Shown here piece by piece: positions 1 to 15,492 of a stretch of DNA of 16,771 bases; positions within the stretch are counted from its first letter, which is position 1; the number at the start of each line of letters is the position of its first letter. The DNA comes from Opitutaceae bacterium (GTDB taxonomy: Bacteria > Verrucomicrobiota > Verrucomicrobiia > Opitutales > Opitutaceae), in contig JAESUN010000160.1 in NCBI GenBank assembly GCA_016763045.1, positions 1-16,771 on the forward strand, written 5' to 3'. The translations under genes were made by a program, and so were the position numbers. The notes below the pieces were generated by a model that was given only the letters and a program-made list of their open reading frames with translations, made no database searches and was not told the DNA's origin.

Positions 1-129
1 AAAGGCTCTGAAGGACTTATTCGCTTCAGACAGAAGGGAATCGGGATACAGGTTAATTGCGAAAACCGAGAGAAGAATCAACAATATGAATCCGAACACG
101 GTAGGGATCGACACCCACACATCGCTCAA
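1..129 (-). CDS. N-terminal fragment of an integral membrane protein, possibly a BCCT-like transporter
   Basis: The minus strand is open from about 129 to the window edge, giving 43 residues. The fragment has a short polar start (SDVW), one strongly hydrophobic helix at about residues 6-26 (FGFILLILLSVFAI within it), then NLYPDSLLSEANKSF. The order 'VSI, hydrophobic helix, Pro-acidic, amphipathic stretch' resembles the first segment of betaine/carnitine/choline (BCCT) transporters, but 43 residues cannot prove it. The start is uncertain. A TTG at 129 overlaps the TGA of the upstream secreted-protein gene (TTGA), and GTG codons at 120 and 114 are alternatives. Such an overlap would suggest translational coupling. 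Any other membrane protein with one N-terminal helix is possible. Confidence 0.4.
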   Translation of the reverse strand, partial: MSDVWVSIPTVFGFILLILLSVFAINLYPDSLLSEANKSFRAF

Positions 130-1142: not shown

Positions 1143-1548
1143 TTTTTTAGACAATTCGTTCTTGGCAATTAAAACAACCAGACCCTATGGCAAAAGAACT
1201 TCGATGGCAACACTGCGTTATGATAATCAGTAATGGCTCGACTCTCGCTCTCTCTTCGACTCTCGCTAGTAACTTTGCAAGAGGAGCACAAAAAAAGACT
1301 ACTGCGACTCATCTCCAGTTTCTTACGTTCGGCAAGGAGACTCTTTTCCTCCACGCGACTTGGTATTCAGGGGCACAGTTGCAACAACCGACGCCCTTCT
1401 CCACCGTAAAATAAGCCAAAGACGCATTCTCCTAAAAAAAGGAGTTTTTCAGAAAACCTGATGAATCTACAATAATGAGTAGACGTAACCATGTGATTTT
1501 GTAAATAATTCCGTCAAAGAACACGATACCTCCTAACCAAAAAAGATT
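1143..1548. other. Intergenic stretch without a supported gene
   Basis: This 406-base region lies between two divergent genes and should carry both promoters, though no convincing -35/-10 pair was found. It contains a 12-base direct repeat (TCGACTCTCGCT at 1238-1249 and 1256-1267, 18-base period). It also has a weak plus-strand hairpin (CTCC at about 1430, loop, GGAG, then five T, ending near 1449). Short ORFs on both strands lack ribosome sites, protein-like composition and recognisable motifs. Confidence 0.5.
1238..1267. repeat. Two-copy 12-base direct repeat
   Basis: TCGACTCTCGCT occurs at 1238-1249 and 1256-1267, separated by CTCTCT, so the block is rich in alternating CT. It sits in the intergenic region upstream of the secreted-protein gene. 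It could be a simple slippage repeat or a pair of protein-binding sites; nothing distinguishes these. Confidence 0.6.
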
Positions 1549-2247
1549 ATGACACAGCAGATAGATACTGAACAATTAAGATCCGACTTTGACCGCGACG
1601 GTTATGTTCTTCTGCCGGCTTTGTTTCCTGACAATGATCTTGCAGATGTTCGCACCATGTTCGACCGGTTCGAGTCAGAACTTGAAGACCGCAATAATGA
1701 CGACCCAACGGAATACGGTAAATTCGAGACAAGCCCAATCACCTTTCCCTTAGCTAACGAACCTGCCGCACAAACACTCATTGCCCACCCCTTGCTGCAC
1801 GAAGCGACTGAAGCAGTCATCGGTGCTTCTTATTCTCTCACATACGCCGCTTCCTGGTGCACGAGAAAAGGGGCTGGCCAAGGTTGGCATCAGGATTCAT
1901 TCAATGATAATCCCGACCAGTTCGTGCTGAATCGCTTGATCTTTGTTCGCGAAATCACATCTGAGCAGGGCTGTCTTTATGTCGTCCCAGGTTCGCATCG
2001 CGCTGGCGACATCCCACCCGGCGAAAATCATGGAGAATTGCCCGGCGAACTGGCGATCACTGTACCAACTGGCTCTCTCGCACTTATGCATTCCCGCTGC
2101 TATCACCGTGTGGGCATCAACCAAACCGACAAACCACGTATTCAGATGAACAGCCGAGCTCTTCCGGCTCTGGCCTCCGAAGACACCAGCTACCGGGCGG
2201 TATTTCGCACCGGACGCTGGGACTTTCGTACCAACAGCGAATGGTAA
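1549..2247 (+). CDS. PhyH-family Fe(II)/2-oxoglutarate-dependent dioxygenase
   Basis: The 232-residue protein has the phytanoyl-CoA dioxygenase (PhyH) layout. An N-terminal FDRDGYVLLPALFP segment is followed by the double-stranded beta-helix. The iron triad is visible: H114 and D116 in GWHQD, and H186 in CYHRVG. A likely 2-oxoglutarate-binding Arg lies at R197 (DKPRIQ). GCLYVVPGSH (141-150) is the usual strand before the variable loop. Family members hydroxylate small substrates such as ectoine, fatty acyl-CoA or secondary metabolites, using O2; the substrate here is unknown. It is cytoplasmic, with no signal peptide. It converges with fhs, with only 13 bases between stops, so it is not in the methyl-transfer operon. 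Its presence argues for oxygen use by the host. No Shine-Dalgarno precedes the ATG. Confidence 0.9.
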   Translation: MTQQIDTEQLRSDFDRDGYVLLPALFPDNDLADVRTMFDRFESELEDRNNDDPTEYGKFETSPITFPLANEPAAQTLIAHPLLHEATEAVIGASYSLTYAASWCTRKGAGQGWHQDSFNDNPDQFVLNRLIFVREITSEQGCLYVVPGSHRAGDIPPGENHGELPGELAITVPTGSLALMHSRCYHRVGINQTDKPRIQMNSRALPALASEDTSYRAVFRTGRWDFRTNSEW

Positions 2248-2260
2248 AATTAATCGATGA

Positions 2261-3934
2261 CTAAAACAGTCCGGTTACCTTACCGTCTTCGTTCAGATCG
2301 ATCACATTCGCTGCAGGTTTCTTAGGCAAGCCGGGCATCGTCATAATATCACCGCAAATCATCACTACAAACTCCGCTCCAGCGGATAGCCGGACTTCTC
2401 GAACATGGATAACATGCCCAGTCGGTGCTCCCAACAATTTTGCGTCAGAAGAAAACGAATACTGTGTCTTCGCCACACAAACAGGAAAATGACCAAAGCC
2501 ATCTTGCTGTAATTTTTCAATTTTCTTACGCACTTTTGCGTCAGCTGAAACTCCTTCCGCCCGATAAATTTTTCGGGCAATCATTTCCATTTTTTCCCAT
2601 AGAGAAGCTCCGTCTTCATAGGAAAAGCGAAAGTCATTCTCATCATTTTCGATACAATCGACAACCATCTGAGCCAAAACCTCTGCGCCCTTTCCTCCAT
2701 TTGCCCAATGAGTTGATTCGGCTACTTTCACTCCCTTTTTCATCAACTGACTGCGAACCAACTCGATCTCCGCATCTGTATCAAAAGTAAATCGATTAAT
2801 CCCGACCACACAGGGAAGACGAAACTGATCTTTAATATTACTCACATGCCTTTCGAGATTCGCCAGGCCGTTTTCAAGAGCCTGCAGGTTTTCCTCCGTC
2901 AAAGCACTCAACTCAGCTCCCCCATGATATTTTAAGGCACGAATCGTTGCGACAAGAACCACCGCATCTGGCTTCAGCCCTGCTTTTCGACATTTAATAT
3001 CCAGGAATTTCTCGGCGCCTAGATCAGCCCCAAAGCCCGCCTCTGTGACCACATAATCCGCCAATTTTAAGCCCGTCTTTGTCGCCAAAATAGTATTACA
3101 CCCATGTGCGATATTCGCAAAAGGGCCGCCATGAATGATCGCCGGATTTCCTTCAAGCGTCTGAACCAGATTAGGCTTAAAGGCATCTTTCAATAAAACA
3201 GTCATCGCACCGTGAACATTTAGATCACGCGCCGTAACAGCCTTTCGAGCTCTGGAATAACCAATGATAATATTGCCCAAACGTTCTTTCAACTCCTTCA
3301 ACGACATTGAAAGGCAAAAAATCGCCATCACCTCCGAGGCCACGACAATATCAAACCCATCCGTTCTCGGACAACCATTACTCACTCCCCCCAGACTCAC
3401 TGTGATTTCACGCAGAGCACGATCATTCATATCAACCACCCGTTTCCAGGTCACCCTCCTTGGATCAATGTCCAATTCGTTCCCATGGAAAATATGATTA
3501 TCAATAATGGCCGAAAGAAGATTATTGGCCAAGGCAATGGCGTGAAAATCACCCGTAAAATGCAGATTAATATCTTCCATCGGCACCACTTGCGCATAAC
3601 CACCGCCAGCAGCCCCTCCTTTCATCCCGAAACAAGGCCCTAGAGAAGGCTCTCTCAAACAAGCGATCGCCTTCTTTCCGATACGATTTAATCCATCCGT
3701 AAGACCCACACTTGTCGTCGTCTTCCCCTCACCTGCCGGAGTGGGACTGATTGCGGTTACCAAAATCAATTTCCCATCAGGTCGTTCCTGCAACGACTCA
3801 ATAAAATTCATCGATATTTTTGCTTTGTAATGACCAAACGGCTCCAAGTGCTCCTCCGAAAACCCCAGCTTCTCCTGAGCGACTTCGACTATTTTCCGAG
3901 GGCTATATTGTTGGGCGATTTCTATATCGGTCAT
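2261..3934 (-). CDS. fhs: Formate-tetrahydrofolate ligase
   Basis: This enzyme interconverts formate + ATP + H4folate and 10-formyl-H4folate. The protein is 557 residues from the ATG at 3934, the usual family length. The P-loop-like [10 protein letters not shown] is at residues 65-74. The glycine-rich family signature ([12 protein letters not shown], then [12 protein letters not shown]) and the C-terminal [15 protein letters not shown] block are all present. An upstream in-frame ATG at 4027 would add 31 residues ([11 protein letters not shown]...) that match nothing in the family, so it was rejected. The gene is on the same strand as the AraC-type regulator but 312 bases away, and probably has its own promoter. 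Beside a methyl-transfer operon it could run in the formate- and ATP-forming direction, or it could simply feed biosynthesis. Confidence 0.97.
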
Positions 3935-3971
3935 TACGTTTTGCGTGGTAGGATGAATGATTGGGCTAAAT

Positions 3972-3998
3972 AAAAAAAATGGCCTCGAAATGGCCTTT
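3972..3998 (-). terminator. Weak hairpin plus T-run in the leader upstream of fhs
   Basis: Read on the minus strand, GGCC, a seven-base loop (ATTTCGA), GGCC and then A followed by eight T form a short stem-loop with a T tract. Three further A-T pairs form if one A is bulged. It lies about 40 bases before the fhs start codon. It may end the regulator transcript or act as an attenuator in the fhs leader. The four-pair GC stem makes it a weak candidate. Confidence 0.35.
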
Positions 3999-4138
3999 CC
4001 ATAAGTTCTAACAATTCTCCTAAACATTGACTGTGCACACTTTGCTCAACGTTAGGCGGTTTTGGACAGAAGCCCATTTTCCCAAAACATGATAAATACA
4101 TGCGCGCGCGTGAGAATAAACTAAAGGGATAAAGCGGA

Positions 4139-4238: not shown

Positions 4239-4261
4239 AAAGACCTCTATTTGTCTTTTTT
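4239..4261 (+). terminator. Small hairpin with T-run after the small ORF, overlapping the regulator's stop
   Basis: AAAGAC, eight-base loop, GTCTTT, then three more T on the plus strand. The stem is six pairs and AT-rich, so termination would be weak. It overlaps the last codons of the convergent AraC-type gene (stop at 4247-4249). Confidence 0.3.
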
Positions 4262-5101
4262 CGCAGTCCATTCTCCAGGGGGAACTCCAAACCGTCGACG
4301 AAACAGGCGATAAAAATGCGAAAGATCATTATACCCGCAAGAAAAAGCCACCCCGATGATCGTATGCGTTTCTTTTTCGAGCAATCGGGCAGCATAAGCG
4401 AGACGAAGCTCTGTCAATTTCTCCAGAAAAGTTATTCCCTCCACTATCTTGAAAAGTTGACTAAAATGCCTCCGAGAGAGCCCTGCCTGCGTACTCGCTC
4501 TCCCAATATCCCATTCCTCAAAAAAAGATTCCTCTAAATTCTTTACCACTTCCTCAACCCGTCGAATCGCCTTTCGTGAAGGAACCTCCTTCAATGCCCT
4601 GGCCAGCCTTACCAGCATCCGTTCGGTGTCTGATCGAAGTAAAACCAGACTACCTACTCTTGGATTCAACTGCTCCACCATCGCTCTTCGCCACGTATGC
4701 TCAAAATGCCTCCGATCCGCCATCGTCAAAGGGATCGACTCCTTCCCTTCCTTATTCAAAGCCTCCCAAACAGCAGATAATTCAGAATCGTTTTCAATAA
4801 AAGCCTCCGAACAACAAAGTAAAAGAATCGTCGAGGGAACCAAATCAGAAATGAGATGTTCGACTCCACTGCAAACGGTCAAGAGCGATCCTCTCTCAAC
4901 GACTATTTTTTTATCGATATTATCCGCTTGATGATTCACTCGACCATTTTGAACATAGAGCAGTTTATGAAAAGAGTCTCGCCGTTTTTGCATACGAAAT
5001 CCTTCTTCATGTATGCTTTCCGCAAAAATCACCCCAACAGGAGGAATAGAGACCTCTACAGGGCGGATTACTTTAGAAGAAACTTCGGGATCATTTTCCA
5101 T
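4247..5101 (-). CDS. AraC-family transcriptional regulator, likely controlling the methyl-transfer operon
   Basis: The protein has 284 residues from the ATG at 5101. The N-terminal ~150 residues look like a cupin-type effector-binding half (FHKLLYVQNGRVNHQAD, then VVERGSLLTVCSGVEHLI). The C-terminal ~105 residues carry the two AraC helix-turn-helix units (WDIGRASTQAGLSRRHFSQL and IIGVAFSCGYNDLSHFYRLF), ending in the usual RRRFGVPPGEW. A TTG at 5152 would add 17 residues; neither start has a good ribosome site, and the ATG is preferred. It is divergent from the UroD-type methyltransferase gene. This is the typical arrangement of a local activator that senses the pathway substrate. The effector is unknown, and it might be the methyl donor. 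Confidence 0.9.
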   Translation of the reverse strand: MENDPEVSSKVIRPVEVSIPPVGVIFAESIHEEGFRMQKRRDSFHKLLYVQNGRVNHQADNIDKKIVVERGSLLTVCSGVEHLISDLVPSTILLLCCSEAFIENDSELSAVWEALNKEGKESIPLTMADRRHFEHTWRRAMVEQLNPRVGSLVLLRSDTERMLVRLARALKEVPSRKAIRRVEEVVKNLEESFFEEWDIGRASTQAGLSRRHFSQLFKIVEGITFLEKLTELRLAYAARLLEKETHTIIGVAFSCGYNDLSHFYRLFRRRFGVPPGEWTAKKDK

Positions 5102-5168
5102 ATATCGCCTAATCTGCAAATAGCATAGGTCCCAATAACCCAAGTATTTCAAGCCTATAAAAAGCTAT

Positions 5169-5231: not shown

Positions 5232-6290
5232 ATGCCAACAACTCCGCATCCAACTGCCACTCGATCAGAAGTAGAATCAACTCTACGCTTCGAGAGTAAT
5301 CGATCTATCCCCCTTTTCATGCCAGCCATCTACGAGCATAAAGGGCATTTCATCGGCAAGACCCCTTCGCAGATCTCTCGTGACCCTCAATTACTTGCGC
5401 AGGCAGCTCTAAAAGAATACGAACAACTAGGGCCAGATGCACTCGCCATCGGAGTGGATGTCTATAACCTCGAAGCGGAAGCAGCTGGTTGCGAAGTGAC
5501 GTATTACGAGGGAGACGACACCAGTATTCCGGGCATCAAACCAGGTAATCACGTGATCAAACCAGGACAAGATCTCACCAATTATCCAGTTCCCAATCCT
5601 CTGAAAGACGGTCGGATGCCAGTCAACATCGAAGCAGCTCGTATCGTTCGCAAAGAAATTGGAGATGATTACTGGATCAGAGGAGCTATTTCAGGACCTT
5701 TCTCTCTCGCGATCAGCCTACTCGGCGCCGAAGACCTCTTCATTTCCTGCCTGGATGATCCCGAATTCGTCAATGGCCTGATGAATTACTCCGCAAAGAT
5801 CATCAAAGAATTTGCCAAAGGTTATATCGACGCAGGAGCCGATCTTATCATCTTTGATTCGCAAGCATCTCCTGAGCTTCTTTCTCCCACCATGTATGAG
5901 GAGATCGTGCTACCCGTCACACAAGACCTGATCGCCTTCTTTAAGACGCAAGGCGTCAACGATGTGCCCTTAATTATTGGTGGGAACACGACCCCAATCA
6001 TCGATACACTGATCGACACCGGAGCAAACAACCTACTCTGCGACTTCACTGGAAACTGGGAAGAATGGTCAGACGCCTGCAGAGGAGCCAAAAGAGCTCT
6101 TCGCCGAAACATCGCCCCACAACTCATCGAAAACGGAACCCCTGACGAAATCTATGCCGTAGCCAAGCAGGAAATCGCCAATGCAGGTGATTTCCCTGGA
6201 TTCATCATGGGAACAGCCGTTATTCCTTTTGCTACAAAAACAGAAAATATTCTCGCCATCAAACAAGCCTGCATCGACGCAGGTTCTTGA
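5232..6290 (+). CDS. UroD/MtaA-CmuA-type methyltransferase (probable MT1: methyl donor to corrinoid protein)
   Basis: A 352-residue TIM-barrel protein of the uroporphyrinogen decarboxylase superfamily, methyltransferase branch. Supporting motifs include PLFMPAIYEHKG (27-38), GPFSLAISLLG (155-165), AGADLIIFDSQASPELLSP (201-219), GGNTTPIID (250-258) and TENILAI (337-343). It heads the operon and lies directly before the corrinoid protein, so a role in transferring a methyl group to Co(I) is likely. The odd point is zinc. MtaA/MtbA-type enzymes use His-x-Cys before the Gly of this GNTTPI block plus a Cys near the C-terminus. Here those positions are I248, G250 and about T328/A329, so all three ligands are missing. 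The donor could therefore be a type that does not need zinc activation. Heme-pathway UroD function is unlikely from context. Confidence 0.85.
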   Translation: MPTTPHPTATRSEVESTLRFESNRSIPLFMPAIYEHKGHFIGKTPSQISRDPQLLAQAALKEYEQLGPDALAIGVDVYNLEAEAAGCEVTYYEGDDTSIPGIKPGNHVIKPGQDLTNYPVPNPLKDGRMPVNIEAARIVRKEIGDDYWIRGAISGPFSLAISLLGAEDLFISCLDDPEFVNGLMNYSAKIIKEFAKGYIDAGADLIIFDSQASPELLSPTMYEEIVLPVTQDLIAFFKTQGVNDVPLIIGGNTTPIIDTLIDTGANNLLCDFTGNWEEWSDACRGAKRALRRNIAPQLIENGTPDEIYAVAKQEIANAGDFPGFIMGTAVIPFATKTENILAIKQACIDAGS

Positions 6291-6336
6291 ACATCATTCC
6301 GATAATAAACCCTTTAACACTCCACCATCTAAAATC

Positions 6337-6978
6337 ATGCCTGACTACGCCCAACTCAATCAATTTGTTTACGAAGGAAAAGCTAAAGACGTCCAACGCA
6401 TTACTCAAGAATACGTCGATGAAGGGATCCCCGTTGATCAAATTCTGAACAAAGGCCTTATCGCCGGAATGAGCGTCGTTGGAGAAGATTTTAAATATAA
6501 CATACTCTACGTTCCTGAAGTTCTTATCGCAGCCAGAGCGATGAAAGCAGGCCTTGCTGTGGTTAAGCCACTCCTCATTGCACAAGACGGAGATTCTTCT
6601 TCATCTGGAACCGTCGTAATGGGCACTGTCAAAGGTGACCTCCACGACATCGGTAAGAACCTCGTCTGCATGATGGCCGAAGGAGCAGGTTTCACCATCA
6701 TCGACATAGGCGTAGATCAACCATACGAAAAGTTCATCGAAGCAGCCAAAGAACATAAAGCGGATATCGTTGGAATGAGTGCCCTACTCACCACAACAAT
6801 GCCGTATATGAAAAAAGTTGTCGATGAATTCGAGAATGCCGGACTCGGTGACATCAAAATGGCTGTTGGAGGTGCTCCGGTCAGTGAAATGTACGCGGAT
6901 GAAGTTGGAGCAGATGGATATGGCTCCGATGCGCCTAGTTCTGTGGAACTTTTCCACAAACTCTGCGCTTCAGCTTGA
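6337..6978 (+). CDS. Corrinoid (cobalamin-binding) methyl carrier protein
   Basis: A 213-residue MetH-type corrinoid protein, the usual length for methyltransferase system carriers (MtaC, MtvC, OdmA). Residues 1-80 form the helical cap (EVLIAARAMKAGLAVVKPL at 61-79). The Rossmann B12 domain follows, with D101-L-H103-D-I-G106; H103 is the expected lower cobalt ligand. S148-A-L150 and G178-G179 are the other nucleotide-tail contacts. It would accept the methyl group from the UroD-type enzyme and deliver it to the MT2 enzyme. The reading frame is open upstream to 6181 but overlaps the previous gene; the ATG at 6337 matches the family's start. A gap of 46 bases separates it from MT1. Confidence 0.97.
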   Translation: MPDYAQLNQFVYEGKAKDVQRITQEYVDEGIPVDQILNKGLIAGMSVVGEDFKYNILYVPEVLIAARAMKAGLAVVKPLLIAQDGDSSSSGTVVMGTVKGDLHDIGKNLVCMMAEGAGFTIIDIGVDQPYEKFIEAAKEHKADIVGMSALLTTTMPYMKKVVDEFENAGLGDIKMAVGGAPVSEMYADEVGADGYGSDAPSSVELFHKLCASA

Positions 6979-6984
6979 GCTGAA
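6969..6984 (+). repeat. Inverted repeat across the corrinoid protein stop codon
   Basis: TTCAGC (6969-6974), TTGA, GCTGAA (6979-6984) can form a six-pair hairpin with a tetraloop that contains the TGA stop. No T-run follows, so it is not a terminator. It could stabilise the 3' end of the upstream message, helping to make more corrinoid protein than reductase, or be chance. Confidence 0.4.
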
Positions 6985-7042
6985 TCAATTTCATTCTCCT
7001 CTTCTCGTTTAAACTCAGGACTCAAACCCCAATTCCAATACG

Positions 7043-8623
7043 ATGCCATCGCTTGAAGAAAAACTAAATCAGTCCGACGCCTTTCTCATAGGAGTAGAGC
7101 TTGTCTCTACTCGTGGGACGACCGCCGATGTAAGCTCTGTCAAAGCGATAAAGTTTGGGAGTGATCTAGCACAAAGCGACAGAATCGACTGGGTTTCGAT
7201 CACCGATAACGCTGGTGGAAACCCAATGCTCGCTCCCGCCGCCCTAGGTAAGCCCATTATGGATGCGGGAAAAGAAGTGATCATCCACCTCTCCTGCAAA
7301 GATTTTAACCGCAACAGCATTGAGAGCCAAGCTTGGCAACTGGCCAGCGAAGGATTCAAGAATATCCTTACCCTCACCGGAGACTTTCCGGAAGATGGCA
7401 TCAACGGGATGGCAAAGCCTGTTTTCGACACCGATTCCGTCGGGCTACTCACCATGCTGGAAAGCATGAACAAAGGACTCACCATCTCCAGAGGAGGTTC
7501 CCGTAAAACGATCCAACTCGGAGGCACCGACTTTTATCCTGGTGCGGTTGTCACCAATTTCAAACTACACGAAAACGAAGTCATTCCCCAATACCTTAAA
7601 TTGGAGAAGAAGATCGAATGTGGTGCCAAGTTCATCATCAATCAGATCGGTTATGATTCACGCAAGAACCACGAACTCATTGCCTACTTCAAACGCAAAA
7701 ACCTCGAACACATTCCCCTCGTCGGAAATGTATATGTCCTAACAGGTACCGTTGCCAAAATTTTTCGATCACAGAGAATTCCCGGTATTGTCGTTTCGGA
7801 TGAACTCCTGGAGCTCAGCCTGGAAAAAGCAGCAGCTCCCGATAAAGGAAAATCCTTCTTCTACGAACTAGCGGCCAAACAGATCGCAATCTACAAAGGA
7901 CTCGGCTACAAAGCGGCTTACCTCGGCGGCGTCCATACTCTCAAAGGGATCGAGCGCATCTTGGACATCTACGACTCTTTTGGAGAAAATGATTGGAAAG
8001 AATTTGCAAAAGAAATTCTTTTTTCCAGGCCGGGAGAGTTTTTTCTTCTCGACGAAGACCCTGAGACAAAACTGGCAAACCCAGATAAGTTGAATCCTGT
8101 CTATGAAGCGTCTTTGGTAGATCCAGAAGCAACTTCAAACGTCAACTTCAGTTTCCGCCTCTCCCGATTTATCCATGATCTCATGTTTGACCAAGGGAAA
8201 GGCTTAGCCAAAATCGGCGCTAAACTCTGCAAAAATTCAGCGGATCCATCCCAGGGGCCCAAACTCCTTCGCACTTTCGAACATATTAGCAAAAGCCTCA
8301 TGTTTGAATGCAAAGATTGCGGGGATTGTTCTCTCCCTGAAACAGCTTTTCTCTGCCCCGAGTCCCAGTGTGCCAAAAACCAGCGAAACGGACCCTGCGG
8401 AGGAACGAGAGACGGTAAATGCGAAGTACATGATTTTGAATGTATCTGGGGCAAAGCCTATGACCGCATGAAATACCTTGGTAAGGACTCCGAACTACTG
8501 GCTCATTCACCCGTCATACAAGACCAACGGTTAAGAGGCACTTCCAGCTGGGCCAATAGCTGGCTGGGCAAAGACCATATCGCTAAACGTCTAAACAAAA
8601 AATCTGAATCTTCAACCGGCTAA
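7043..8623 (+). CDS. metF: Methylenetetrahydrofolate reductase, MetF fused to a MetV-like cysteine-rich C-terminal domain
   Basis: The 526-residue protein has two parts. Residues ~1-300 form the MetF flavin TIM barrel (FLIGVELVSTRGT near the start, the WVSITDNAGG and NILTLTGDFPEDG blocks, and the GAKFIINQIGYD strand). This half interconverts methylene- and methyl-H4folate. The C-terminal ~110 residues match the MetV/MTHFR_C domain with eight conserved-looking cysteines: C423, C426, C429, C438, C443, C452, C460 and C467, around GPCGG. In acetogens MetV is a separate subunit that helps electron transfer to or from MetF; here it is fused. In this operon the enzyme likely runs oxidatively, taking methyl-H4F from MT2 to methylene-H4F. 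It is 64 bases after the corrinoid gene. A biosynthetic role supplying methionine synthase cannot be excluded. Confidence 0.95.
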   Translation: MPSLEEKLNQSDAFLIGVELVSTRGTTADVSSVKAIKFGSDLAQSDRIDWVSITDNAGGNPMLAPAALGKPIMDAGKEVIIHLSCKDFNRNSIESQAWQLASEGFKNILTLTGDFPEDGINGMAKPVFDTDSVGLLTMLESMNKGLTISRGGSRKTIQLGGTDFYPGAVVTNFKLHENEVIPQYLKLEKKIECGAKFIINQIGYDSRKNHELIAYFKRKNLEHIPLVGNVYVLTGTVAKIFRSQRIPGIVVSDELLELSLEKAAAPDKGKSFFYELAAKQIAIYKGLGYKAAYLGGVHTLKGIERILDIYDSFGENDWKEFAKEILFSRPGEFFLLDEDPETKLANPDKLNPVYEASLVDPEATSNVNFSFRLSRFIHDLMFDQGKGLAKIGAKLCKNSADPSQGPKLLRTFEHISKSLMFECKDCGDCSLPETAFLCPESQCAKNQRNGPCGGTRDGKCEVHDFECIWGKAYDRMKYLGKDSELLAHSPVIQDQRLRGTSSWANSWLGKDHIAKRLNKKSESSTG

Positions 8624-8649
8624 ATTCATCCGGCGTCTTACTTATTCCT

Positions 8650-8668
8650 TTACATATAAACATATGTA
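8650..8668. promoter_or_regulatory. Inverted repeat in the gap before the MT2 gene
   Basis: TACATAT (8651-8657), AAAC, ATATGTA (8662-8668) is a perfect seven-base inverted repeat. It includes TTACATAT, a near copy of the TTACATAA repeats upstream of the operon. The surrounding 94-base gap is the longest inside the cluster. It could hold a second operator or promoter for the MT2-to-109-residue half of the cluster. I could not fit a convincing -35/-10 pair. Confidence 0.4.
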
Positions 8669-8717
8669 TTAATGTTGATATGTATGAATCCCTGAAAAAG
8701 TCCTTCCACAAAAATTT

Positions 8718-9653
8718 ATGAACGAAAAAAAGATCAAAGTTATTGGAGATCTCATCAACAACGCTTATGGCCGCGCACGCAAAGCCTGGACCACCCGAAA
8801 CCTTGAGGGCTATCAGAAACTAGCTAAATCTCAGGAAGAAGATGGTGCGATCGCTCTTGATGTAAATATTGACGGCACTCAGGTTGTCTCCGTTAAGCAG
8901 GAAGAAATGCTAGAGTTCCTGCCAGAGCTCATCCCTGCCCTCCAAGAAGCCACCTCAGTGCCTCTCTGCTTTGATAATCCTTCGGTCAAGTATCACCGCA
9001 TGGCTCTCAAGCACCATGATCAATCAAAATCAAACGGGAAGCCCATCATCAACTCCATTGCTGCCTCTCGTGAAAATCTTGATGAGATCCTTGAGCTGAT
9101 AAAAGAATATGATACCAGAGTCATCGTGATGGCTTCAGAGCATTTCCTCGAGGACGGAGGAAGTGCGCAATGTATGAATCCAAATGATTCCCATGCCGCT
9201 ACAAAACATTTTGTCGAACTCCTGACAACAAAAGCAGGACGAACAATAGACGATATCATTGTTGATACCGGTCTGGCGCCAATTGGAGCCGACACATACT
9301 GTCTCGTTAACATTGGATTAGATGCGATCAAACTAATCAACGAGGACCCTGACCTTCAGGGAATTCATTTCTCTGTCGGCCTCACCAATTTTGCTTGGGG
9401 TTCACCCAAGGCAATTCGCCATCAAATGGAACGGGCCTATCTGAGAATAGCGTCAGAGGTCGGGCTGGATTATGCATTGGCAAACCCAGAAAAAGATCCT
9501 CAACCATCAGACCCTTCCGACCCTCTCGTCGATCAGCTCCGCAACGTCCTTAAAATAGGTCGTCAACAAGAAGGAGAATCCCGCGAAGATGCTGGATTTC
9601 GTCAGGCTGAAGCAGTCCTTGAAATCTGCTTGGAGCATATAGATAGGGATTAA
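8718..9653 (+). CDS. Methyl-H4folate:corrinoid protein methyltransferase (MT2, pterin-binding domain)
   Basis: The 311-residue protein is a pterin-binding TIM barrel like AcsE, MtrH, MT2 of O-demethylases and the MetH folate domain. Family signatures are visible: VIGDLINNAYGRARKAW (8-24; the 'iGE.iN..r' start), GAIALDVNID (43-52), KPIINSIAA (108-116), DTGLAPIGAD and the FSVGLTNFAWGSP block near residue 235. It should move the methyl group between the corrinoid protein and tetrahydrofolate. MT1, corrinoid carrier, MT2 and activator together make the full four-part methyl-transfer set. Its stop is three bases before the amidohydrolase start. No Shine-Dalgarno is seen. Residues after ~285 (glutamine- and acid-rich, DAGFRQAEAVLEICLE) form a helical tail. 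Confidence 0.93.
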   Translation: MNEKKIKVIGDLINNAYGRARKAWTTRNLEGYQKLAKSQEEDGAIALDVNIDGTQVVSVKQEEMLEFLPELIPALQEATSVPLCFDNPSVKYHRMALKHHDQSKSNGKPIINSIAASRENLDEILELIKEYDTRVIVMASEHFLEDGGSAQCMNPNDSHAATKHFVELLTTKAGRTIDDIIVDTGLAPIGADTYCLVNIGLDAIKLINEDPDLQGIHFSVGLTNFAWGSPKAIRHQMERAYLRIASEVGLDYALANPEKDPQPSDPSDPLVDQLRNVLKIGRQQEGESREDAGFRQAEAVLEICLEHIDRD

Positions 9654-9656
9654 TAC

Positions 9657-10940
9657 GTGCTTTCATCCAAACATTTTGCTGCGCTTTCCTCTGTAACAGA
9701 GGAAGGCAATGTTTGGCTACAAATCGCTGAATTAATCGACGGGCAGAGCACTGTATCCCTCCAGAATGCTCACCTCGTTTATTCACAATCCGAAATTCTC
9801 TACGTTGGGAATGAAGATTCACCTCCACCTAAGGACATTGTCCCGGGAAAAACAAACCCGGATCTCATTCTGACAGAATACACTGTCTTGCCAGGACTCA
9901 TCGAGGCCCATGCCCACTTATTCCTCGAAGGAAGCGAGCTCGATTTCGATAAACGAAAAACTTACTTAGCACTCCCTCAAGACCAACTTCTAAGCAAAGC
10001 CAGAGAACGACTTTCCAACCTCCTCCACCTCGGCATAACAGCCATCCGTGATGCAGGCGACAGGAACAACGTGGGATTGACCCTAAGTTCTGAATACCAA
10101 AAAGGAAACCAAAACGACATGCCCTACATAGACAGTCCCGGTGCAGCCATCCACCACCAAGGTCGCTATGGAAGTTTTATGGGCGACCCCTTGGAAGCGT
10201 TTCAAAACGCAGAAGCCTGTGTGAAATCCCGTATCACCGATGGGGCTGACCGGATAAAAATCATTGCGACCGGCATCATCAATTTTAAAAAAGGTCGGGT
10301 AACGTCAAAACCCCAGATGTCTGCCGAAGAAGTGACTGCACTGGTTCAATCCTCCAGGAAACACAACCGCCAGACGTTTGCCCATGCTTCGGGTAGCGAG
10401 GGCATCGAAAACGTTATTAAGGGAAAGGTTGACTCGATCGAACATGGTTTTTTCATCACCGACGAACAGCTCCTCAAACTGCGCGACAACAATATCGCAT
10501 GGATCCCAACTCTGACCCCGATTCAAAAACAAATCGAGCATGCGAAACAATTAGGATGGAATGACCAAACGGTCGATCACCTCAAGCGCATCATCGACAC
10601 CCATCAAAAAACTCTCCTCAAAGCCGCCGACCACGGAGTAACCATCATAGCAGGAAGCGATGCCGGATCGTGTGGAGTTCCCCATGGATCCGGATTACTG
10701 GATGAACTGGAGCTGATGGAAGACGCCGGACTTTCCAGTATCCACGTGGTGAATTCAGCTACAGGGACAAGCGCAAGCAGATTGAAATACCGCGATGAAA
10801 TTGGATCTCTTAAAAAAGGATCGAAAGCCCGCTTTATCCTCACAGAGCATTCACCTGTCCAGACTGTCAAAAATCTTCAAAAAGAGAAAATCGTTGTTTT
10901 CGACGGCGCTCTCTTTCACTCCCATTCACATTTTTCTTAA
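9657..10940 (+). CDS. Metal-dependent amidohydrolase (imidazolonepropionase/prolidase-like subgroup)
   Basis: A 427-residue cytoplasmic amidohydrolase with no signal peptide. Binuclear metal-site residues are recognisable: H85-A-H87 after the VLPGLIEAH strand, K201 in RIKIIATG (likely carboxylated), H243 in FAHASG, H263 in SIEHGFF and D335 in AGSDAG. The small beta-sandwich is formed by the two ends. This pattern fits the Xaa-Pro/imidazolonepropionase-like branch, which hydrolyses amide bonds in small molecules or dipeptides. It starts with GTG three bases after the MT2 stop, so it is almost certainly co-transcribed. Its place among the methyl-transfer genes suggests it releases the methylated substrate from a conjugate, or processes the demethylated product. 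The substrate is unknown. Confidence 0.9.
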   Translation: MLSSKHFAALSSVTEEGNVWLQIAELIDGQSTVSLQNAHLVYSQSEILYVGNEDSPPPKDIVPGKTNPDLILTEYTVLPGLIEAHAHLFLEGSELDFDKRKTYLALPQDQLLSKARERLSNLLHLGITAIRDAGDRNNVGLTLSSEYQKGNQNDMPYIDSPGAAIHHQGRYGSFMGDPLEAFQNAEACVKSRITDGADRIKIIATGIINFKKGRVTSKPQMSAEEVTALVQSSRKHNRQTFAHASGSEGIENVIKGKVDSIEHGFFITDEQLLKLRDNNIAWIPTLTPIQKQIEHAKQLGWNDQTVDHLKRIIDTHQKTLLKAADHGVTIIAGSDAGSCGVPHGSGLLDELELMEDAGLSSIHVVNSATGTSASRLKYRDEIGSLKKGSKARFILTEHSPVQTVKNLQKEKIVVFDGALFHSHSHFS

Positions 10941-10961
10941 GCCTCAAGAACCAACTGCACG

Positions 10962-12611
10962 ATGCCTGTTCGTCTCCTGATCAATTCCAAAGAAGCCACC
11001 AATCCCAAAAAGGGAACTAATATCTTCGAAGCCGCTGAAGAGATAGATATCCGTGTCCCCTCTTCCTGTCGTAAACAAGGAAAATGCAGGGAATGCCTCG
11101 TCGAGGTCATTCAGGGAGAAGATCTCCTCTCACCTCGTACATTCGAAGAAGAACACCTCAAGGGCTCCTTCCGACTCTCCTGCCGTGCCCATATCGCAGG
11201 TGAAAGCGGAATCGTCCGCTGCCACACAATGCGTAGCGGAACAATGCAGATGGAAGACAGCGCGATTGATCTCCCGGGCAATATAAACGGGAAAAGACTC
11301 CTGGTCCCTGCCGTCACCCGAGACGGTGATCGCATTCTATTGGATGGAGACGAAATAGCTGTCTCCAGCGAGCCCATCCACGGCATTGCGATGGACCTGG
11401 GAACAACCACGATTGTTGTTCGCCTGCTCAACCTGGAGACAGGAGAACTGATTGCGACCTCCTCCTTTGAAAACCCTCAACGTTTTGGAGGCTCCGATGT
11501 CATGTCCCGTATTCAATACGATACGGATCATCCAGACAAACTTCTGCAAAAGACTCTTCTGGGTTACCTGACGCGAGCGATCAAAGATCTACCGGTCGAT
11601 CCCAAAACAATCTACGAACTGGTTGTCGCAGGAAACTTAACCATGCGTGACATCTTTTTCGGATTGAACGTCTATTCCATAGGTCAAAAGCCCTACCGCT
11701 CCCAAACGGAACTCGACGTCGAAGAAGGTAAAGAGACATCCACCAGCTATCACTTAAAAGCTAAAGAACTAAGGATTCCTATTCATCCTAAAGCCAGGAT
11801 CTATGGGACACCCTTAATCAGTGGCCATGTCGGTGCGGATGCCTCTGTCAATATGCTGGCTATTGATCTCGCTAACGAGGAGAAAACCATCGTCCTCATG
11901 GATATCGGCACCAACACAGAGATTATCATTGGAAACAAAGATAAGATCATGGCAGCCTCTTGCCCAGCAGGCCCCGCCTTCGAGGGTGGAGCGATCACCT
12001 GCGGAATGCCCGGGCTCGATGGAGCTATCGATACCGTTTCGATCGATCCCTCCACCGGCAAAGCCGACTTCCACGTGATCGGAGATCGCAGAGCACAAGG
12101 TATCTGTGGCTCAGGATTAATAGACATTCTCAGCGAACTCAGAAAAACAGAACTCATCAATGAGCTGGGTCGTTTCGAAGAAATCAAAAACCCCTACGAC
12201 ATAGATAAAGAGAACGGAATTTCTTTCTCCGAAAGCGACATCAATGAACTGGCACAGGCGAAAGGTGCAAACGTAGCCGGCTTACAAATCGTATTCAAAA
12301 ACTACGGACTCTCCCTTGAAGATATTGATGTTTCCTATTTGGCCGGAGGCTTTGGACGTTACATAAACATCGATGCAGCCAAACAGATTGGATTGATACC
12401 AAATCTTCCAACCGAAAAAATCCTTCAGGTAGGCAACGCCGCCATTGAAGGTGCTACCATTGCCCTTCTTTCCATTAGCCGAAGAAAACATTTGGAAGAA
12501 ATGGTCAAAAACATCGAACACATAGAACTCGAAACAGATCCCGATTTCTTCGATTATTTCGTCGACGGCTGCCAATTCCTCCCTTTCGACAGCACTGAAT
12601 TCTCCTCCTGA
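10962..12611 (+). CDS. RACo-type ATP-dependent reductive activator of corrinoid protein (ferredoxin + ASKHA domain)
   Basis: The 549-residue protein reduces accidentally formed Co(II) back to Co(I), coupled to ATP hydrolysis. Residues 1-92 form a plant-type [2Fe-2S] ferredoxin domain with C36-x5-C42-x2-C45 and C74. A linker follows, then the DUF4445/ASKHA ATPase: DLGTTT (145-150), a VVAGNLTMRDIFFGL block, MDIGTNTE (313-320), GICGSG (380-385) and YLAGGFG (459-465). The architecture matches RACo of the CO dehydrogenase pathway and the activating enzymes of O-demethylase systems. It differs from RamA, which carries C-terminal [4Fe-4S] clusters. It follows the amidohydrolase by 21 bases and precedes the MetH-activation-like gene by one base. 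Its natural target is the corrinoid protein encoded at 6337-6978. Confidence 0.95.
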   Translation: MPVRLLINSKEATNPKKGTNIFEAAEEIDIRVPSSCRKQGKCRECLVEVIQGEDLLSPRTFEEEHLKGSFRLSCRAHIAGESGIVRCHTMRSGTMQMEDSAIDLPGNINGKRLLVPAVTRDGDRILLDGDEIAVSSEPIHGIAMDLGTTTIVVRLLNLETGELIATSSFENPQRFGGSDVMSRIQYDTDHPDKLLQKTLLGYLTRAIKDLPVDPKTIYELVVAGNLTMRDIFFGLNVYSIGQKPYRSQTELDVEEGKETSTSYHLKAKELRIPIHPKARIYGTPLISGHVGADASVNMLAIDLANEEKTIVLMDIGTNTEIIIGNKDKIMAASCPAGPAFEGGAITCGMPGLDGAIDTVSIDPSTGKADFHVIGDRRAQGICGSGLIDILSELRKTELINELGRFEEIKNPYDIDKENGISFSESDINELAQAKGANVAGLQIVFKNYGLSLEDIDVSYLAGGFGRYINIDAAKQIGLIPNLPTEKILQVGNAAIEGATIALLSISRRKHLEEMVKNIEHIELETDPDFFDYFVDGCQFLPFDSTEFSS

Positions 12612-12612
12612 A

Positions 12613-13344
12613 ATGAACCTCCCTCAGGGCAAAACAATACCGATCGTCCGCGACGAAGAGTTTAAGCGACTCCTCGGGCTCCCGCCGGACTTCGAACTAA
12701 CTGAAGAGATGGCAAGTCTCTCTCAGTGGGCTCGCGATTGGTATGCTGAAAACGGACAACCCTGGACCTACTCTCAAGAAGCGGAGAACTTTGAAATCAA
12801 AGAGGACCATCTCATCATTGATTCCGCCCTTTTAGATACGAAGGAATTCCGCAAACGGCTCATCAGTGGACGAGCACACAGTGTCGTCCTCATCGCCGCA
12901 GGTGCAGGCCCGGAAGCAGAAGAAGAAGCCAGAACCCAGTGGGAAAACGAATTCCCCGATAAGTATTTTTTCATGGAAGCCTATGCCTCCGCGGTCGTTG
13001 AAGCCTTGATCACTGAAGCAAGCGGACGACTCTGTGCCTGGGCAGATGCAAAAGGAATGGCCGCGCTCCCACACTATAGCCCCGGCTATCAGGGATGGGA
13101 ATTAAAAGATCAGAAAGTTATTTACGAACTCATCACGGAGAAAGACCCCTCTATTGCTCAAAAAATAGAGCTACTTTCTTCAGGCATGTTGAAACCTAAA
13201 AAATCTCAGCTCGCTGTTTTTGGACTGACGCGTGACCTTACTCGTGCCAAAAACCTCGAAGAGCTGGTTCCGTGTACCTATTGTGCACTACTTAAATGCC
13301 AGTTTCGACGTGGCAAATACAGAACCATTGCCCAGGCATCATAA
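12613..13344 (+). CDS. Stand-alone protein related to the MetH cobalamin reactivation domain
   Basis: The 243-residue protein aligns by eye with free-standing vitamin B12-dependent methionine synthase activation-domain proteins. These carry R-x-S-P-G-Y and end in a Cys-x2-Cys-x4-Cys tail. Here the blocks are AHSVVLIAAGAGPEAEEEA (88-106), a helix YASAVVEALITEASGRLC (124-141), H154-Y-S-P-G-Y159-Q-G-W, KPKKSQLAVFGL (194-205) and C221-x2-C224-x4-C229. In MetH the domain binds S-adenosylmethionine for reductive methylation of Co(II). The Arg before SPGY that contacts SAM in MetH is His154 here, so SAM use is doubtful. The gene starts one base after the RACo-type activator and abuts the next gene. 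It probably assists corrinoid maintenance or binds the carrier. Exact role unknown. Confidence 0.7.
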   Translation: MNLPQGKTIPIVRDEEFKRLLGLPPDFELTEEMASLSQWARDWYAENGQPWTYSQEAENFEIKEDHLIIDSALLDTKEFRKRLISGRAHSVVLIAAGAGPEAEEEARTQWENEFPDKYFFMEAYASAVVEALITEASGRLCAWADAKGMAALPHYSPGYQGWELKDQKVIYELITEKDPSIAQKIELLSSGMLKPKKSQLAVFGLTRDLTRAKNLEELVPCTYCALLKCQFRRGKYRTIAQAS

Positions 13345-13842
13345 ATGAATCCAGAACAAGAAGCATCTAGCGGAGAGAATCCATTGAACAGCGAAGTCAC
13401 CTATGACTACGGCAACAAAGCCCTCAAGCGCTGGCACAAAGAAAGGCTAACCATCTCCCACCATGAGAACGGAACCATTAAGGCTCTCTTCCAACTAATT
13501 GGAAGCACTTGTAGCAACATGGGCATGCCCCTTTCCTTCGACTACACTGTCGCCCTGTCCGGCCCATCAGAACAATATACCATAACCGAGATGCAATGCC
13601 TGCCCACCGAAGGGCATCATGGCCATAAATCGATGTGCAGCTACCTCGATAATCCAGGAAGAATCCTCGGTGCATTAGAAAACGAAAAACCACTGCTTGG
13701 GAAAACGCTTGATCAAGCTATCGACTGGGATGCGAGGATCTCACCAGCTGGATGCGTTTGCACCCAAGGAAGTCGCAATCATAAATGGAATATTGTTTTG
13801 CAAACCCTCCACTTTGCTCTCTCACACTTAAAACACACTTAA
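13345..13842 (+). CDS. Unknown 165-residue cysteine/histidine-containing protein of the methyl-transfer operon
   Basis: I do not recognise a family. The ATG follows the previous stop with no gap, and no ribosome site of its own is seen, so translation is probably coupled. The protein has no signal peptide or membrane helix. Five cysteines stand in motif-like settings: C56 (GSTCSNMGMPLSF), C85 (TEMQC), C98 (after G-H91-H92-G-H94-K) and C137-V-C139 (SPAGCVCTQGSRNHKW). The GHHGH and C-x-C groups could bind a metal or Fe-S cluster; this is a guess from composition. The sequence is moderately hydrophilic with mixed alpha/beta appearance and ends in a helix (VLQTLHFALSHL). Position behind two corrinoid-activation genes suggests an accessory of corrinoid repair, electron delivery or substrate handling. 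Confidence 0.75.
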   Translation: MNPEQEASSGENPLNSEVTYDYGNKALKRWHKERLTISHHENGTIKALFQLIGSTCSNMGMPLSFDYTVALSGPSEQYTITEMQCLPTEGHHGHKSMCSYLDNPGRILGALENEKPLLGKTLDQAIDWDARISPAGCVCTQGSRNHKWNIVLQTLHFALSHLKHT

Positions 13843-13854
13843 CCGAATAGACCT

Positions 13855-14184
13855 ATGCAAATCAAACTCTGTGACGTAAACCCAAATGCAGAAGAAATGC
13901 TTTCTGCCGAAAAAAACGACCGATCCGGTATCGGCGTTCACTATGTGGATGCTTATATCAAGCCCATGAAGACCACTCTGGAAGACGGAACGAGAGTCAC
14001 CTGCAAACGCAGAGGATTAAAAGTTACGCTCTCCGTCGGAGATAAAAAAGGTATCGGACTCATGCGTCGTCTCGATGTCAGCGAAGACCCCATCGTCATG
14101 CTTCAAGCAGCCCTTCAAGAAGCGGCAACAGCAGCGGGTATCACACTTTCCGTCAATGACGGAGCCATCTTTATCGAATCCTAA
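13855..14184 (+). CDS. Unknown 109-residue protein closing the methyl-transfer operon
   Basis: Not recognised. It starts 12 bases after the 165-residue protein and is the last plus-strand gene before the convergent slyD. Predicted features are a small alpha/beta fold: MQIKLCDVNPN, a Gly-rich stretch (RSGIGVHYVDAYIKP), three to four strands with basic residues (RVTCKRRGLKVTLSVGDKKG), then an amphipathic helix (PIVMLQAALQEAATAAGI) and a final strand. There is no signal peptide, membrane segment or clear catalytic motif. C6 and C50 are its only cysteines. It could be a small partner or chaperone of the corrinoid system. The regular operon spacing and normal composition support a real gene. Confidence 0.75.
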   Translation: MQIKLCDVNPNAEEMLSAEKNDRSGIGVHYVDAYIKPMKTTLEDGTRVTCKRRGLKVTLSVGDKKGIGLMRRLDVSEDPIVMLQAALQEAATAAGITLSVNDGAIFIES

Positions 14185-14228
14185 GGGGATTCGTCTGAGA
14201 TCGCTTTTCTCTAGGAGAGCATCTAGAC

Positions 14229-14257
14229 AAAAAAATGCTCCCCTTAAAAAGGGAGCA
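14229..14257 (-). terminator. Intrinsic terminator of slyD
   Basis: TGCTCCC (14236-14242) and GGGAGCA (14251-14257) form a seven-pair GC-rich stem with an eight-base loop. On the minus strand it is followed by A-free T7 (A7 on plus at 14229-14235), a good rho-independent terminator for the SlyD-type gene. On the plus strand an A-rich stretch with no T-run follows, so it should not strongly stop the converging operon. Confidence 0.8.
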
Positions 14258-14294
14258 GATAAAAAGCAGGTAAACTGGAGCTCGCTATAAAGTC

Positions 14295-14819
14295 TTAGTG
14301 CTTGCAGCCACAGCCTTCATTCCCACAACCACCTTCATCTTTTTCTTCATGGTGGTGATGACCTCCTGACCCATGAACATGGCCGTGACTTATTTCAGTT
14401 TCTGTCGCAGCTCTCTTTTCAGTGATTTCCACTTCGAAAAACAAATCTTCTCCCGCCAGTGGATGATTCGCATCAAGCGTCACCTTATCACCATCGAGAG
14501 CCACCACTTTCACCACGGGTGCATGATTGTCCTCACCCGCCCGAAACTGATCCCCAATCGAAATATCCTCCACTGGTAAAAGAGAACGCTCCACAATCTG
14601 AATCATCGATTCATCATGTTCGCCATAGCCACGCTTTGCTTCGACGATCACTTCTTCCTTTTCTCCAACCTCCAAGGCTTTCAACGGTTCCTCCAATCCT
14701 TCAATAATGGAACCACTGCCTTCCAGAAAAGAAATCGGTGAACCGGATCCCGAAGTATCCAAAACCTCTCCGGATTTATTGCGTAAAGTATAATTAAACG
14801 TGATGATATTTAAGCTCAT
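14295..14819 (-). CDS. slyD: SlyD-type FKBP peptidyl-prolyl isomerase with metal-binding tail
   Basis: The 174-residue protein catalyses cis-trans isomerisation of prolyl bonds and acts as a cytoplasmic chaperone. The FKBP domain is split as in SlyD: MSLNIITFNYTLRNKSGEVL start, PISFLEGSGSIIEGLEEPL (28-46) and KRGYGEHDE (62-70). An insert-in-flap chaperone domain follows (~73-115), then DANHPLAG (116-123) and the closing FFEVEI strand. The tail (145-174) is rich in His and Cys (GHVHG, HHHH, CGNEGCGC) and should bind nickel or similar metals, as in E. coli SlyD. An in-frame ATG at 14855 adds 12 residues not typical of the family; the ATG at 14819 is preferred. It converges with the methyl-transfer operon and is divergent from purE, and probably has no functional tie to either. 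Confidence 0.95.
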   Translation of the reverse strand: MSLNIITFNYTLRNKSGEVLDTSGSGSPISFLEGSGSIIEGLEEPLKALEVGEKEEVIVEAKRGYGEHDESMIQIVERSLLPVEDISIGDQFRAGEDNHAPVVKVVALDGDKVTLDANHPLAGEDLFFEVEITEKRAATETEISHGHVHGSGGHHHHEEKDEGGCGNEGCGCKH

Positions 14820-14991
14820 AGGACTAAAAAAAGAAGCCCCATCGTTCCCATCCATTCAAACCCTAGCAAGAAAAACCTCACCTCAAGGTACTTTTAAACT
14901 CGAAACACCCTTCGCTTTCGGTGAAAAAGATGTTATCTGCTACTGATATTCCACCCATATTAGAGAAATAACGTTCGAAAACACCTTCAAT

Positions 14992-15492
14992 ATGCCCGAG
15001 ATAGACCCAACAAAACCACTCATCGGAATCATTATGGGGAGCACCTCTGACTGGAGCACCATGAAGCATACCGCTGATAAACTGGAAGAATTCGGTATCC
15101 CCTTCGAAAAAGAAGTCGTCAGTGCCCACCGCACTCCGCAAAAACTCTATGAATACGCTCGCTCGGCTTCTGAAAGAGGACTGCGATGCATCATCGCTGG
15201 AGCTGGCGGAGCTGCTCATCTTCCAGGAATGGCCGCCGCCATGACAGAGCTACCCGTCTTGGGTGTCCCCGTCGAATCTGCAGTCCTACGAGGTGTGGAC
15301 TCAATGCTATCCATTCTTCAAATGCCTGCGGGCATACCTGTTGCGACATTTGCCATCGGTAAAGCCGGTGCGACCAATGCCGCTCTTTTTGCCCTTTCTC
15401 TGCTCGCAGCGACAGATACGGAATTAGCCGGCAAACTTGCCGATTTCCGCACGGCACAGACAAATCAGGTGCTGCAGTCAAAACTCCCTTGA
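14992..15492 (+). CDS. purE: N5-carboxyaminoimidazole ribonucleotide mutase
   Basis: PurE converts N5-CAIR to CAIR in purine synthesis. The 166-residue protein is of class I length and carries all signatures: [11 protein letters not shown] (11-21), SAHRTP (44-49, with catalytic H46), [11 protein letters not shown] (70-80), GVPV and the [17 protein letters not shown] block. It is followed 20 bases later by purK, its usual partner, so N5-CAIR made by PurK is passed on. No Shine-Dalgarno precedes the ATG. It is divergent from slyD with about 170 bases between the starts. Confidence 0.98.

Follow-up and report, generated by a model that had tools for sequence, protein, structure and literature searches.

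Corrinoid O-demethylases are known chiefly from work on strict anaerobes, and the Co(I) on which their chemistry turns is readily oxidised. What, then, does a set of corrinoid methyl-transfer genes do in a probable aerobe? The question is raised by a 16,771-nucleotide stretch of an Opitutaceae bacterium (contig JAESUN010000160.1 of assembly GCA_016763045.1; the whole stretch is called the window below), in which the initial annotation had placed nine genes on the forward strand (5232-14184) behind a divergent AraC regulator and had recognised the plan of O-demethylase/mto systems. Pfam and NCBIfam confirmed six of the nine genes, the other three having no Pfam match, and the component set bore out that plan (Table 1). 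We hold with good confidence that the locus is a conserved operon for corrinoid-based methyl transfer and has a folate outlet. The chances are about even for the more specific reading, in which a corrinoid O-demethylase with a catabolic role would feed folate oxidation and its most probable donor would be an aryl methyl ether of the lignin type.

Table 1. Features of the window, with the matches on which each assignment rests.
Feature	Position	Strand	Basis
MT1, UroD-superfamily methyltransferase	5232-6290	+	PF01208 E 4.6e-44; MtaA/CmuA family 132.6 bits (cut-off 235.4)
Corrinoid protein	6337-6978	+	PF02607, PF02310; motif GDLHDIG
MetF-MetV fusion (MetFV): methylenetetrahydrofolate reductase and Cys-rich MetV domain	7043-8623	+	PF02219, PF12225
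MT2, methyl-corrinoid:tetrahydrofolate methyltransferase, pterin-binding type	8718-9653	+	PF00809
Metal-dependent amidohydrolase, Xaa-Pro-dipeptidase/ochratoxinase group	9657-10940	+	PF01979; 2qs8 E 3.6e-34, 4c5y E 2.2e-18
RACo-type reductive activator (2Fe-2S, middle and ASKHA domains)	10962-12611	+	PF00111, PF17651, PF14574; AcsV 333.5 bits (cut-off 800)
Stand-alone MetH activation-domain homologue	12613-13344	+	activation-domain fold
Cys-rich protein, function unassigned, found in type A loci	13345-13842	+	AlphaFold pLDDT 82.8
Conserved 109-aa protein, function unassigned	13855-14184	+	family without Pfam match (16/16 members)
AraC-family regulator, divergent from the operon	4247-5152	-	PF12833, PF00165
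FTHFS (formate-tetrahydrofolate ligase)	2261-4027	-	PF01268 E 8.6e-269; NCBIfam PRK13505 906 bits (cut-off 652)
PhyH-family oxygenase, adjoining FTHFS	1549-2247	+	very weak similarity to methylphosphonate hydroxylase, far under cut-off
342-aa protein	126-1154	-	no Pfam/NCBIfam match at E 1e-3; N-terminus signal-peptide-like by eye

Conservation of the nine-gene operon

The window makes up contig C81 of a metagenome-assembled genome (MAG) of 2.29 Mb and 75% completeness. Genome contigs were scanned with an MT1 alignment, which gave 93 relatives, and the best 80 of these 93 loci were examined. The search for the same gene order that had been proposed as a check found all nine genes, on one strand and in the same order, in 14 of the 80 loci; operons of this window type are called type A. 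Locus L030 holds eight of the nine and lacks the amidohydrolase, and five others (L010, L014, L015, L024 and L041) show MT1, the corrinoid protein and MetFV before the contig ends. Two full operons (L017 and L033) occur within one MAG. Among the 14 nine-gene loci, 13 have an AraC match on the opposite strand (the exception is L016), as do L030 and all nine loci of the sister operon (type B) described below.

The closest relatives by MT1 were Opitutaceae MAGs, with 87% MT1 identity at the same-genus locus L009, and the organism names given among the 120 MT1 matches listed were Opitutaceae, Opitutus, Synoicihabitans and Verrucomicrobia. All nine genes are also carried by a complete genome (G014), which appears to be Congregicoccus parvus ASA1 (Opitutales bacterium ASA1). 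The available text on that organism describes it as aerobic, oxidase- and catalase-negative and isolated from garden soil, and places it in Alterococcaceae (PMC12193912), whereas our genome grouping counted G014 in the window's own family. In nine type A pairs, which are not independent, omega was 0.04-0.14 for MT1 and 0.03-0.18 for MetFV.

Host metabolism and a possible route for the methyl group

COX1-family genes were found in 22 of 23 genome entries, with four matches in the window's MAG, in accord with the earlier view of the host as a probable aerobe. The absence of acetyl-CoA synthase, noted before for the window, extended to the relatives: CdhC/acetyl-CoA synthase (PF03598) was matched in 0 of the 23 entries and in both archaeal controls. 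The initial annotation had further suggested that methyl groups enter folate oxidation, and an outlet for them is supported by two enzymes. An FTHFS gene, overlooked in the first reading, lies beyond the AraC gene on the same strand and likewise adjoins the operon in L009; FTHFS occurs in 21 of 40 entries, including all nine of type B. PurU scored above its cut-off in 35 of 38 (all except G066, G070 and G071). Besides MetFV, a standard MetF is present in nine of the ten type A genomes examined, the window's included (G066 has none), which makes MetFV an additional enzyme in these genomes. The operon is consistent with an oxidative branch of C1 metabolism and not with acetogenesis.

Direction of flux, donor and regulation are inferred, as would be any part played by the amidohydrolase and by the three genes at the operon's end. 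In the proposed scheme the AraC protein would sense a methylated compound, MT1 would transfer the methyl group of the donor to Co(I) of the corrinoid protein, and MT2 would hand it on to tetrahydrofolate (THF). MetFV would then oxidise methyl-THF, and FTHFS or PurU, together with folate enzymes whose genes lie elsewhere, would let the C1 unit out as formyl-THF and formate; FTHFS, if it ran in reverse, would yield formate and ATP. RACo, perhaps helped by the stand-alone MetH activation domain, would rescue corrinoid that had been oxidised to Co(II).

A sister operon carrying a LigM/DesA-family gene

In nine loci (type B: L019, L020, L021, L023, L025, L029, L031, L037 and L039) a divergent AraC gene and MT1-MetFV are followed by a LigM/DesA-family protein. 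Matches to a corrinoid protein, MT2, amidohydrolase and RACo were all lacking from the type B stretches fetched, of which that of L019 stops shortly after LigM, at the contig end. The L021 protein matched LigM (5tl4) at E 5.9e-136 and scored 566 bits as DesA and 519 bits as LigM, both under the equivalog cut-offs of 800 and 580. In an MT1 tree of 44 rows, the nine type B rows and L035 formed one fork (support 95/86), itself part of a fork (96/87) to which three type A rows belong; because it is nested among type A rows, type B is probably derived. The omega values for seven type B pairs, again not independent, were 0.13-0.32 for MT1 and 0.13-0.27 for MetFV: type B MT1 is under purifying selection and is as constrained as MetFV. 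At L035, the amidohydrolase occupies the position that LigM has in type B.

Several other arrangements were seen. The L035 region (8900-15020, the same as L102) reads AraC, divergent from MT1-MetFV-amidohydrolase-activation domain, with LigM, the corrinoid protein, MT2 and RACo absent locally. In other LigM operons of Verrucomicrobiota, AraC diverges from LigM-PurU and a weak MetF match (L098:5693-9713), an arrangement in favour of the catabolic reading, or from a MetV-first MetF gene and LigM (L099:6947-10583). In type B genomes, amidohydrolase matches were found in three of nine and were distant (29-30%).

Where MT1 might find a corrinoid partner

A corrinoid-protein match was present in all 31 genomes searched. 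In the nine type B genomes the best match belonged to a second family (47-51% identity) outside the MT1 locus, and in all nine a RamA-like activator (32-35% identity to RACo) was encoded within 3 kb of it. We call these sites hubs; those fetched hold several UroD-like proteins (three L089 proteins were scanned). One type B genome (L103) has a MetFV-MT2-FTHFS-MetF run near its hub, and at L043 an MT1-MetFV-MT2-amidohydrolase operon without its own corrinoid protein stands on the same contig as a hub. We infer that MT1 may draw on hub parts in trans. Hub loci of Opitutaceae-type genomes were L089-L094, L096, L101 and L103, and in the window's MAG only a hub edge is assembled (G000:C365, L100). 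Most hubs fetched include the RamA-like activator, and the L089 hub also has a homocysteine-methyltransferase-like gene.

These loci bear on whether MT1 is a corrinoid methyltransferase at all or a UroD-fold enzyme that merely shares the regulon. In the nine type B loci and L035, MT1 is retained although no corrinoid protein is encoded nearby; in L018, L028, L040 and L044 its operon partners are missing (L028 and L040 are short contigs). The hubs, however, could serve it in trans, the corrinoid-less L043 operon shares its contig with one, and in the four Pelagicoccus-type loci where MT1 is complete (L060, L062, L063 and L071) a single protein consists of MT1 followed by the corrinoid protein, a CmuA-like plan. 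This fusion links MT1 with a corrinoid protein on grounds other than gene order, and we consider the shared-regulon explanation highly improbable. A fifth locus of this type (L076) breaks off inside MT1. In L060, L062 and L071 the fused MetV precedes MetF, opposite to the window order, and in L062 and L071 MT1 is preceded by a gene weakly related to the activation domain (E 6e-4 and 9e-4).

The methyl donor

Opposite the His/Cys/Cys of MtaA (4ay7), which we take to be the zinc ligands, MT1 has Ile248, Gly250 and Thr328, according to an alignment and to conservation in 23 homologues. The assignment of the ligands fits the account of Kountz and Balskus (PMC10418091), in the accessible part of which UroD-family S-methyltransferases have His-Cys-Cys and O-methyltransferases have one or both Cys replaced. 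Because the zinc ligands of MT1 are replaced, and because CdmB and the Moorella O-demethylase are described as zinc-free (PMC13222342, in the available text), an ether or halide is, from the protein sequence, a more likely donor than a thiol.

A methyl halide donor, of the kind used by the UroD-family Cdm and Cmu systems, would suit several of these features: CdmB and CmuA are UroD-superfamily MT1s, the first of them zinc-free (PMC13222342, same text), the window MT1 matches the MtaA/CmuA family model, although under its cut-off, and the Pelagicoccus-type fusion resembles CmuA. No halide-linked gene was recognised among the neighbours scanned, however, and the LigM-bearing sister operon indicates ethers, which makes this donor very improbable.

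The initial annotation had left the donor open and had named betaines and N-methyl compounds among those to try. The donor is still deduced rather than observed, and it is constrained a little, because a LigM/DesA-family aromatic O-demethylase shares the operon in a nested clade. Betaine and N-methyl systems use MttB-superfamily MT1s, so that such donors are less likely, though the best NCBIfam match of the corrinoid protein is of the MtgC type, from the glycine-betaine system, far under its cut-off (193.6 bits against 370). In the cases described in PMC5547118, enzymes of the LigM/DesA family act on aryl methyl or methylenedioxy ethers.

This MtgC match is one of several observations that weigh against an O-demethylase for aryl ethers. 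The loss of the His ligand of MT1 exceeds the replacement described in PMC10418091. The scan of selected neighbours revealed neither a recognisable aromatic transporter nor a gene for ring cleavage. Since type B retains MT1 without a local corrinoid protein, LigM may serve a substrate other than that of MT1. The window's own MAG does have a LigM gene (G000:C19; L097:1-2360), 75% identical to that of L021 and placed after a MetF-family gene cut by the contig start, and its contig may be contamination; it is given little weight because its composition differs from that of the window (G+C 52% against 47%; tetranucleotide r 0.61, against 0.90 for another contig) and because no LigM was found in the same-genus genome G001. 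Among acidobacterial and planctomycete MT1 loci (36-43% identity), no corrinoid-protein match was found at E 1e-3.

A further group of these observations leads towards carbohydrates. MT1s of Ignavibacteria and Bacteroidota (43-52% identical) often stand beside MtaB and carbohydrate kinases; 11 loci (L049-L054, L056-L058, L072 and L086) combine MT1, a corrinoid protein and an MtaB-type gene (the one MtaB member scanned matched PF12176 at E 2e-155). In many of the 11, these genes belong to a conserved cluster that also encodes PfkB, glycerate kinase, Gfo/Idh, nucleotidyltransferase and GHMP kinase. Galactokinase-type and heparinase-like genes also occur near these relatives, whose clusters are possibly a demethylation step in carbohydrate catabolism. 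The neighbours of type B include an FGGY kinase and a hydrolase whose best family, under its cut-off, is 2,4-didehydro-3-deoxy-L-rhamnonate hydrolase. With the same machinery running in the same direction, the donor could accordingly be aliphatic, for instance an O-methyl sugar or polyol derived from polysaccharides of plants or bacteria. The sugar genes stand outside the operon, however, and what shares the AraC-MT1-MetFV operon in nine loci is a family of aryl ether enzymes; we regard this alternative as unlikely, if worth keeping in view.

The direction of flux can also be turned round: MetFV would make methyl-THF, MT2 would load the corrinoid protein and MT1 would methylate an acceptor, for example as a methyltransferase resembling a split methionine synthase or as a biosynthetic one. 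MetF usually runs in the reducing direction, and the operon includes a MetH activation domain. A standard MetF was absent from all seven type B genomes examined, so that MetFV could be biosynthetic there, which is a further point against a catabolic role. Set against this, the operon's Pfam matches include no homocysteine-binding domain (PF02574) and do not make up a split methionine synthase, MT1 is without a thiol zinc site, and MetFV of type B shares its operon with a LigM-type producer of methyl-THF. In addition, by our count 27 of the 31 genomes have frames of MetH size that carry a corrinoid match, these two traits being the only criteria; none was seen in the window's incomplete MAG. 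Reverse flux is, on this evidence, very unlikely.

An O-demethylase for aryl ethers remains our preferred reading, and it can be extended into a wider scenario that we advance tentatively, as rather doubtful in its entirety. Oxygen-respiring Verrucomicrobiota would gain carbon and energy from lignin-type ethers by means of a genuine corrinoid O-demethylase, which two reactivation parts of the same operon, the ATP-dependent RACo and the stand-alone MetH activation domain, would keep working in air. In one lineage a corrinoid-free LigM would have taken the place of the corrinoid module within the operon, and the MT1 that stayed would now work with a hub encoded elsewhere.

Details of the operon proteins

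The reading frame of the corrinoid protein is open from 6181, and its start is probably at 6337. Solved relatives of MT2 are the folate domains of MetH and of the AcsE type, and also 4o0q/4o1e. The last three operon proteins had no Pfam match at E 1e-3, the best weak one being at 0.1. In the first of them, the activation-domain protein, His replaces the Arg of RxxxGY, presumably the AdoMet motif of the MetH activation domain, so that the AdoMet arginine is missing; by eye, this column in 18 homologues has His in 13, Phe in three, Tyr in one and Arg in one (L017). The Cys-rich protein had no Pfam match up to E 10 and no convincing fold match. The 109-aa family is large and still without a Pfam model, with 7383 homologues among 7999 candidates scored.

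Comparison with known systems

Corrinoid methyltransferase genes in soil bacteria are not new as such, because peatland MAGs of 19 bacterial phyla are reported to carry them, some for methoxylated compounds, with expression in Acidobacteriota (PMC10805028); the available main text of that paper does not mention Verrucomicrobi-. The part of another study that was available reports no mtv/mto genes in the MAGs of its soil set (PMC11264602). In the open-licence literature (titles and abstract starts, among the matches listed), no report of a corrinoid O-demethylase in Verrucomicrobiota was found. If our reading is right, the operon would broaden the known routes of methoxyl-carbon turnover in oxic soils and waters and would offer a tractable system for the oxygen tolerance of corrinoid demethylation. 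The sister operon would be a natural exchange of two unrelated demethylation chemistries under the same regulator family, with the same MT1 and MetFV.

By gene set, the operon resembles Mtv/Odm/Vdm of acetogens and Mto of Methermicoccus, which have a UroD-superfamily MT1, a separate corrinoid protein, a pterin MT2 and an ATP-dependent activator (PMC8630106 and PMC13222342, as far as their available text goes). Zinc-free MT1s are known in the Mtv/Odm/Mto group, and the zinc site of the window MT1 is likewise non-thiol. Unlike those systems, it occurs in hosts without acetyl-CoA synthase and with COX1-family genes, and it adds a MetF-MetV fusion, an amidohydrolase, a MetH activation domain, two unknown families and an AraC gene.

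With LigM/DesA of the SYK-6 type the window system would share the supply of methyl-THF for oxidation, and a gene of that family stands in the sister operon. LigM/DesA is, however, a corrinoid-free single enzyme, and the window operon has no GcvT-family gene (no PF01571), whereas the nine type B loci have one. Cmu/Cdm systems also combine a UroD-family MT1 with corrinoid and folate steps; CmuA, in the published text available, joins MT1 and corrinoid protein as the Pelagicoccus-type relatives do, whereas the window encodes them as separate genes and separate polypeptides. Type 1 mlp clusters likewise place UroD-family proteins with a corrinoid protein and an activator (PMC10418091). In the accessible part of that paper, Mlps have His-Cys-Cys zinc ligands, three described examples have no folate methyltransferase gene, and the genera are reported to be obligate anaerobes. 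An mlp cluster has at least two Mlps, whereas the window has one UroD protein, in which the ligands are absent, and has MT2. The novelty lies in the host, in an operon plan that includes MetFV, an amidohydrolase and an activation domain, and in the sister operon with LigM; the chemistry is a known one, in a host where it was not expected and in a new gene context.

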